A DNA stretch of 57,486 bases from Candidatus Eisenbacteria bacterium (GTDB lineage Bacteria; Eisenbacteria; RBG-16-71-46). Position numbers and translations under genes: made by a program. A model generated the notes under the pieces. That model had not been told where the DNA came from, made no database searches, and saw only the letters and a program-made list of their open reading frames with translations. Within the stretch, counting starts at the first letter, position 1. Each line of letters begins with the position of its first letter. The stretch covers positions 1-57,486 of the forward strand of contig JABFRW010000074.1 of NCBI GenBank assembly GCA_013140805.1, given 5' to 3'. Shown here piece after piece: positions 42,249-44,000 of the stretch.

Positions 42249-42617
42249 ATGATCCAGCTCCGAAGCATGGTGATCGTCGCCGACAACTCGGGCGCCAAGC
42301 GCGCCCAGTGCATCAAGGTGCTCGGTGGACACCATCGCCGTTACGGATATCCAGGCGACATCGTGGTGGTCGCGGTGAAGGATGCGATCCCCGGCGCCGC
42401 CGTGAAGAAGGGCGACGTCGCCAAGGCGGTCGTCGTCCGCAGCCGCAAGGAGACGCGTCGCGAGGACGGCTCCTACATCCGCTTCGACGAGAACGCGGTG
42501 GTGCTCATCAACGACGACAAAGAGCCGCGCGGGACCCGCATCTTCGGACCGGTGGCTCGCGAACTGCGCGAGAAGTCGTTCATGAAGATCGTTTCGCTCG
42601 CGCCGGAGGTCATCTGA
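42249..42617 (+). CDS. rplN: 50S ribosomal protein L14
   Basis: 122 residues, standard. [84 protein letters not shown]. Its last base is the first base of the rplX ATG (TGATG overlap). Confidence 0.97.
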
Positions 42618-42964
42618 TGGCGACGCGTATCCGCAAGGGCGACACCGTGGTGGTGATCGCGGGGGACGACAAGGGCACGGCCGCGAAGCCGAAGACGGGC
42701 CGCGTGCTCTCGGTCGACGAAGTGAAGCAGCGCGTGGTGGTCGAGGGCGTGAATCTGGTGCGCCGCCATCAGAAGGCGCGCAGCAGCAAGGTGCAGAGCG
42801 GCATCATCGAGAAGGAAGCACCGGTTCACATTTCGAATGTGATGTTGTGGGATGCGAAGGCGGGCCGCGGCTCGCGGATCGGCATGCGCGTGAACCGCAG
42901 CGGGGAACGTGAGCGAGTGTCGAGAGCGAGCGGCGAGGTGATTCCGAAGCCCGAAAAGGCCTAG
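42617..42964 (+). CDS. rplX: 50S ribosomal protein L24
   Basis: 115 residues. KOW-containing assembly initiator: IRKGDTVVVIAGDDKGTAAKPKTGRVLSVDEVKQRVVVEGVNLVRRHQK, then APVHISNVMLWDAKAGRGSRIGMRV. ATG shares one base with the rplN stop. Followed by an unusually long structured gap before rplE. Confidence 0.96.
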   Translation: MATRIRKGDTVVVIAGDDKGTAAKPKTGRVLSVDEVKQRVVVEGVNLVRRHQKARSSKVQSGIIEKEAPVHISNVMLWDAKAGRGSRIGMRVNRSGERERVSRASGEVIPKPEKA

Positions 42965-42992
42965 GGCGGCGCGGCCGGTCGGCTGCGACGCG

Positions 42993-43046
42993 CGCGATCT
43001 CCGAAGCACCAGGGTCGGGGGAGATCGCGATGACTCGAGACCCTGG
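42993..43046 (+). promoter_or_regulatory. Possible H-type pseudoknot at the rplX-rplE junction
   Basis: Stem 1: 42993-43002 pairs with 43020-43029, 10 perfect base pairs (CGCGATCTCC with GGAGATCGCG). Its 17-nt loop contains CCAGGGTC (43009-43016), the exact complement of GACCCTGG (43039-43046) downstream, giving a crossing 8-bp stem 2. Stem 2 covers the first Gs of the rplE ribosome binding site (TGGAGAG, ATG at 43057), so folding should restrict L5 translation. In E. coli S8 represses the spc operon at this same junction. Confidence 0.6.
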
Positions 43047-43056
43047 AGAGTGACCG

Positions 43057-43776
43057 ATGGCGGACGACAAGAAAGACAAGAAGGACAAGGACGCGGCCAA
43101 GGCCGCGAAGCCGGCGAAGACTCCGAAGGCCGCAGCCAAGCCGGAAGGCGCCGCGAAGAGCAGCAAGTCGCGCGGCGACGGCTCGAAGGTCGCGATCGCG
43201 CTCTCCGAGGGTCGTCCGGGCGTGCTCGGCAAGAAGCCGCGCCTGCGCGAGCACTACGAGCAGAAGGTCGTAAAGGCGCTGATGGAGAAGTTCACGTACC
43301 GCAGCGCCATGCAGGTGCCGCGTTTCCAGAAAATCGTCGTCAACATGGGCGTCGGTGACGCGATCACGGACGCCAAGCACATGGACGCCGCGGTCAACGA
43401 GCTGGCGCAGATCACCGGACAGAAGCCGTCGGTGCGGCGCGCGCGCAAGTCGATCGCGAACTTCAAGCTGCGCGAGAAGCTCCCGATCGGCTGCATGGTG
43501 ACGCTGCGGGGCGAGCGCATGTACGAGTTCTTCGATCGCCTCATCAGTGTGGCGATTCCCTCGATGCGTGACTTTCGTGGTTTGAGCCCGCGGTCGTTCG
43601 ACGGTCGCGGCAACTACACGTTCGGCATCACCGAGCACAATATCTTCAGAGAAATCGACATCGATAAGGTCATGAAGCTGCGCGGCATGGATGTGACGAT
43701 CGTGACGTCCGCGCGGACGGACGAGGAAGGGCGCGAGCTGCTGAAGCTCATGAACATGCCCTTCCGTCAGCGCTAG
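43057..43776 (+). CDS. rplE: 50S ribosomal protein L5 with Lys/Ala-rich N-terminal extension
   Basis: 239 residues; L5 is usually near 180. Residues 1 to about 58 form a low-complexity Lys/Ala/Pro tail ([20 protein letters not shown] and so on), like a histone H1 tail. The core starts at [20 protein letters not shown] and runs through [48 protein letters not shown] and [24 protein letters not shown]. The ATG at 43057 has GGAGAG upstream; no good start exists nearer to the core. Confidence 0.93.
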
Positions 43777-43814: not shown

Positions 43815-44000
43815 GTGGCGAAGAAGTCGCTCATCGAAAAGTGGAAGCGCAAGCCCAAGTTCAAGGTTCGTGCGTACACCCGCTGTCACCGTTGCGGGCG
43901 GCCGCGTGCGTTCCTGCGGGATTTCGGCATGTGTCGTATCTGCTTCCGTGAACTCGCCCTCTCCGGGCAGATCCCCGGAGTGGTGAAGGCAAGCTGGTAA
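43815..44000 (+). CDS. rpsZ: 30S ribosomal protein S14, zinc (type Z) form
   Basis: 61 residues from a GTG start with GGGAGG upstream. [60 protein letters not shown], with the four zinc Cys (C-x2-C and C-x2-C). Short type Z S14, as found in Gram-positives and several other phyla. Located between rplE and rpsH as usual. Confidence 0.96.

Follow-up and report, generated by a model that had tools for sequence, protein, structure and literature searches.

In the spc ribosomal-protein operon of a Candidatus Eisenbacteria bacterium, the 92-nt gap between rplX and rplE holds an H-type pseudoknot whose two helices, as shown by compensatory changes across 12 related genomes, exist and are maintained. 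The window that we analysed is the whole 57,486-nt stretch of contig JABFRW010000074.1. The best reading of these comparisons is that the knot represents a new structural class among ribosomal-protein leaders, a pseudoknot type belonging to the spc operon, which would repress the translation of rplE with S8 or L5 as the most likely effector. The knot very probably serves as a control element of this big operon, and we think it likely that it acts in cis on the initiation of rplE translation and, by coupling, on the genes downstream.

A pseudoknot in the rplX–rplE gap

The gap (42965–43056) lies exactly between the rplX stop codon (42962–42964) and the rplE ATG. The earlier note on this DNA had described a perfect 10-bp stem whose loop pairs into the rplE Shine-Dalgarno, and both parts of this description proved exact. 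The two crossing helices, S1 of 10 bp (10/10 Watson-Crick) and S2 of 8 bp (8/8 paired), together span 54 nt, with loops of 6 (L1), 3 (L2) and 9 nt (L3); the 3' arm of S2 includes the GG of the Shine-Dalgarno GGAG, which is placed 8 nt 5' of the start codon. The coordinates of all parts are collected in Table 1.

Table 1. Parts of the rplX–rplE leader and flanking genes, in window positions
Feature	Positions	Strand	Basis
rplX (uL24), upstream gene, stop 5' of the leader	42617–42964	+	translation and relatives
P0, spacer hairpin 5' of the knot, optional	42966–42991	+	spacer folding versus dinucleotide shuffles
S1 5' arm, CGCGATCTCC	42993–43002	+	10/10 pairing with 43020–43029; covariation
L1, GAAGCA, last two bases CA kept in 11/12 genomes	43003–43008	+	alignments
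S2 5' arm, CCAGGGTC, anti-Shine-Dalgarno arm	43009–43016	+	8/8 pairing with 43039–43046; compensated variants
L2, GGG, variable, 2–4 nt among relatives	43017–43019	+	relatives
S1 3' arm, GGAGATCGCG	43020–43029	+	pairing, covariation
L3, ATGACTCGA, variable, 6–9 nt	43030–43038	+	relatives
S2 3' arm, GACCCTGG, overlaps the GG that opens the Shine-Dalgarno	43039–43046	+	pairing, covariation
Shine-Dalgarno GGAG, invariant in 12 genomes	43045–43048	+	alignments
rplE (uL5), presumed regulated gene; heads the run rpsN(Zn)-rpsH-rplF-rplR-rpsE-...	43057–43776	+	–

The judgement that two such helices are unlikely by chance was also borne out. In 20,000 Markov copies of the 92-nt gap, exact crossing helices of at least 8 + 8 bp appeared 32 times; the observed 10 + 8 bp pair is rarer by chance than that, yet is no proof alone. 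Plain minimum-free-energy folding of the gap gave no signal (z = -0.5), a value that is uninformative because nested predictors cannot represent a knot and the region is G+C-rich. Taken as separate stems, S1 has an energy of -9 to -22 kcal/mol and the S2 hairpin of -14 to -15 kcal/mol, and the stacking energy of S2 is about -17 to -20. With a pseudoknot penalty near +9, a literature-type value, the knot is roughly estimated to lie near or below its nested alternatives in energy, and close to them in several genomes; such a near-balance would suit a switch tipped by a protein.

A small GGC/GTC helix within the S1 loop of the nested folds was dropped, as it is not conserved across genomes. A mini-ORF of seven codons (ATG ACT CGA GAC CCT GGA GAG TGA; 43030–43053) lies inside L3, S2 and the Shine-Dalgarno and stops 3 nt before the rplE start; several relatives are without a matching start and some have another ATG or GTG, and it was discarded as a functional part. 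No promoter was found by consensus in the gap.

In the neighbouring genes, the L5 of this family is extended at its N terminus by about 60 residues rich in Lys, Ala and Pro (43057–43236 in the window), an extension that is absent from E. coli L5 and is also present in relatives with and without the pseudoknot and in other families of the class. The rpsN gene of the window (43815–44000) encodes an S14 of the zinc-binding type (CxxC...CxxC) and starts with GTG.

Covariation among relatives

The window genome (G000) is the sole representative of its genus in our set, which comprises 19 other genomes of its family and 47 of the phylum, and the rplE leader was inspected in all 16 family genomes whose assembly includes rplE. 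An rplE match is absent from the assemblies of G001, G008, G015 and G016, two of which are reported to be 99–100% complete; these absences are probably assembly gaps.

The same knot was found in 12 of the 16 leaders, that of the window and those of 11 other genomes. S1 is 8–10 bp long and has a different sequence in nearly every genome; its pairing is intact in 95 of 96 inner cells (8 inner pairs in 12 genomes), and the helix is uninterrupted in 11 genomes, the twelfth having one mismatch. S2 is 8 bp long and mostly CCAGGGTC/GACCCTGG, with compensated variants in G003 (CCAGGCTC/GAGCCTGG) and G017 (CCAGGGGT/ACCCCTGG) and 7/8 pairs in G011. The distance from the end of S2 to the rplE ATG is 10–13 nt in all 12 genomes (measured by hand in G017).

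For covariation analysis the alignment was trimmed to 16 pairs, eight inner ones from S1 and all eight from S2, plus short anchors, so that the test covers these stem columns. Such a test of both helices in relatives had been proposed in the earlier note, with uncompensated drift in one arm named as the refuting outcome. The opposite was found: standard pairs occupy 99.0% of the 192 cells (190/192; 12 genomes), and 10 of the 16 pairs have changed on both sides. The covariation score was 0.565 against 0.143 ± 0.029 in 500 shuffles, none of which scored as high, and it was 0.04–0.14 in a control where the 3' partners were slid by 1–3 columns. S1 arms combined across genomes pair at 4.9 of 8 positions on average versus 7.9 of 8 with their own partner, and among 20,000 permutations of these arms none reached the observed 95/96. 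G-U pairs are present in S1 of several genomes and point to selection on the RNA, not the DNA.

Five of the eight S2 pairs, located over and beside the Shine-Dalgarno, are invariant and give no covariation signal by themselves. Because these pairs never vary, the support for S2 consists of three varying pairs together with strict co-conservation; the invariant part could alternatively be conserved because it is a Shine-Dalgarno whose partner is conserved too, or because a protein contacts it. Across the 12 genomes only GCA-CCAGG...CCTGG-AG is strictly kept, and L2 and L3 vary freely. The two L1 bases before CCAGG are CA in 11 genomes and UA in one, and AG follows CCUGG in all; an A·A mismatch and a C-G pair (once U-G) could thereby extend S2 over the whole GGAG, or these bases may serve instead as a protein contact.

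These data bear directly on the explanation that the helices are chance inverted repeats in G+C-rich DNA. Such repeats would agree with the ordinary plain folding energy (z of -0.5), but they are refuted by the covariation, with the knot present in 12 genomes with compensatory change (0/500 shuffles). The lack of a comparable perfect knot in 80 unrelated rplE leaders also speaks against them, and we regard this explanation as practically negligible.

Spacer, distribution and known leaders

Between the rplX stop and S1 there are 13–117 nt, usually folding into one to three extra hairpins. In ten genomes these folds are on average more stable than those of dinucleotide-shuffled spacers, with a mean z of -2.5. 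A P0-like hairpin occurs in 11 of the 12 genomes, with a different sequence in each, and is absent from G003, where the spacer is 13 nt long. Since the sequences differ everywhere and G003 has no such hairpin, we consider the spacer hairpins accessory. The spacer of G002 (L007) is 117 nt long and folds mostly as a single extended hairpin, with a total of -81 kcal/mol; it is far larger than in other genomes.

The variable spacer hairpin probably shields rplE from ribosomes that terminate on rplX. If translational coupling were the function, those ribosomes would open the knot, so that rplE expression tracks that of rplX. The knot does sit between two co-transcribed genes, and the gap in genomes without it is 2–52 nt, a short distance typical of coupling, versus 72–179 nt in genomes with it. 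A terminating ribosome, however, covers only about 12–15 nt beyond the stop and would miss S1 in most genomes, given the 13–117 nt in between, usually with a further stable hairpin. The spacer hairpins make direct opening of the knot by a ribosome ending at rplX unlikely, and we hold this coupling of rplE to rplX to be quite improbable.

A covariance model (R1) built from the 12 knot sequences matched each of the 12 genomes strongly once and only once (53–78 bits), and every one of these matches precedes rplE. Elsewhere in the phylum no match exceeded 30 bits, and in 373 other genomes there was none at E <= 1e-5. Weak matches of 20–30 bits (e.g. in G044, G001 and G043) were judged to be chance, as they comprise GGAG-ATG-like ends or one stem only and no knot. 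A search for perfect H-type knots (at least 7 + 6 bp) before rplE recovered 11 of the 12 family leaders, the twelfth being the one with an S1 mismatch, and found none in 80 rplE leaders of other phyla, where 1 was expected by chance. On present evidence, the knot is confined to one uncultured bacterial family.

Within this family, a tree of neighbouring ribosomal proteins places the window genome on the deepest branch; the knot occurs in this genome and also across that split from it, and is retained across about nine genera. It is absent from four members (G005, G006, G007 and G012) and, because these live without it, is not essential. The simplest history is that the knot arose once, ahead of the family's diversification, and was later lost about three times, a tentative number (G006 together with G012; G005; G007). 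In terms of the criteria for ribosomal-protein leaders (r-leaders) defined by Eckert & Weinberg 2020, the structure is conserved and backed by covariation (10/16 pairs, 0/500 shuffles), and its position is consistently upstream of a ribosomal-protein gene, with 12/12 copies directly before rplE and none elsewhere above background.

In E. coli, S8 represses translation at the rplX–rplE junction of the spc operon (PMC10931766, PMC4176348), and its operator mimics 16S helix 21, being a helix interrupted by an asymmetric internal loop of seven conserved nucleotides (PMC4176348). The window knot resembles this operator in its location at the same junction, in the rplE initiation region, and in the presumed block of rplE initiation with downstream genes following by coupling. 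As the earlier note had held, the fold is different: the E. coli operator is a hairpin that contains this loop and extends into rplE, whereas the knot lies wholly upstream of the start codon and has an S1 that is uninterrupted in 11/12 genomes. A helix-21 core was sought with a pattern, TGAAAT...CTGCAT, from the organism's own 16S helix 21 (GGAATGTGAAATGCC...GGCACTGCATCC, locus L129), and there was no match in the window.

Pseudoknots at or just upstream of the ribosome-binding site of a ribosomal-protein gene are also known from the S15 (rpsO) leaders of E. coli and mycobacteria, the mycobacterial one likewise lying upstream of the start codon (PMC10931766). Unlike these, the present knot belongs to another gene and operon, is followed by rplE and not rpsO, and has no sign of an S15 site.

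A compact H-type pseudoknot of similar size that hides the Shine-Dalgarno is also a trait of SAM-II and preQ1 class riboswitches, and a small-molecule riboswitch of this kind could happen to precede rplE. The genes are different, however, and the conserved ligand loops are absent: the loops, which form the ligand sites in those classes, are unconserved except for CA. No Rfam match was found in the window at E <= 1, and a search of the 12 family loci returned two sub-threshold chance matches, neither at the leader. Together with the occurrence of the knot solely before a ribosomal-protein gene, this makes a riboswitch very improbable. Translational repression via a pseudoknot in ribosomal-protein mRNA, as proposed here, is also known for S4 (alpha operon) and L20 (infC-rpmI-rplT); those knots are larger or long-range and involve different genes and sequences, and the window matches no Rfam family of this kind.

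The earlier suggestion of a new class of ribosomal-protein leader appears likely, given the lack of an Rfam match, the strong covariation that 12 genomes show for S1 and S2 alike and the invariable position before rplE. The spc operon is the longest ribosomal-protein operon of E. coli. Only in E. coli-like bacteria is the RNA behind its feedback known, and a 2024 review describes regulation beyond these as unknown and its phylogenetic study as not advanced (PMC10931766). None of the 20 novel leaders listed in PMC7247131 is for L5, S8 or spc genes, and no published report of such an rplE-leader element was found in the open-access literature that was searched.

Proposed mechanism and candidate ligands

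In the mechanism that we propose, the 30S subunit could not use the rplE Shine-Dalgarno while the knot is closed, and opening of S2 would make it usable; genes downstream of rplE would follow through translational coupling. An operon-encoded ribosomal protein in excess over rRNA would stabilise the closed knot, giving feedback through a fold unlike that of E. coli.

By analogy, S8 may be this protein and is our first candidate, because E. coli S8 represses at the same rplX–rplE junction. L5, which is encoded by the first gene under the presumed control, comes second and is the more doubtful of the two; another ligand, or none, accounts for the remainder. S8 can bind an aptamer RNA without the natural sequence motif (PMC4176348) and for this reason stays a possible ligand of the window knot. 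We tentatively picture the knot as bound by L5 (alone or with 5S rRNA partners), or by S8 using a surface or a fold that differs from helix 21.

No sequence signature pointing to a ligand was found, either as a helix-21-like S8 core in the window or as a match of at least 8 nt to the organism's own rRNA; the latter search compared the conserved knot motif with its partial 16S, 23S and 5S rRNA. Sequence mimicry of rRNA was rejected, since the only match, of 7 nt in the 23S locus, is attributable to chance.

This lack of a signature would fit a fixed brake without a ligand, which holds rplE initiation constantly low or responds to temperature or magnesium only. Such a brake would also agree with stems that are stable on their own, with the freedom of L2 and L3 to vary and with strict conservation limited to GCA-CCAGG...CCTGG-AG. 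A weaker Shine-Dalgarno, however, could fix the rate with no need for a paired RNA of 54 nt; the CA conserved in L1 and the retention of one fold across about nine genera suggest recognition, and the E. coli precedent at this junction is feedback. We therefore consider a ligand-free brake unlikely.

Should the knot indeed be bound by L5, or by S8 in a manner unlike helix 21, then L5 would gain its first known autoregulatory RNA, or S8 its first natural operator that is not a mimic, independently evolved at the junction used in E. coli. A compact 54-nt candidate with a different fold, at E. coli's own control junction, would make a clear case for convergent evolution of ribosomal feedback.
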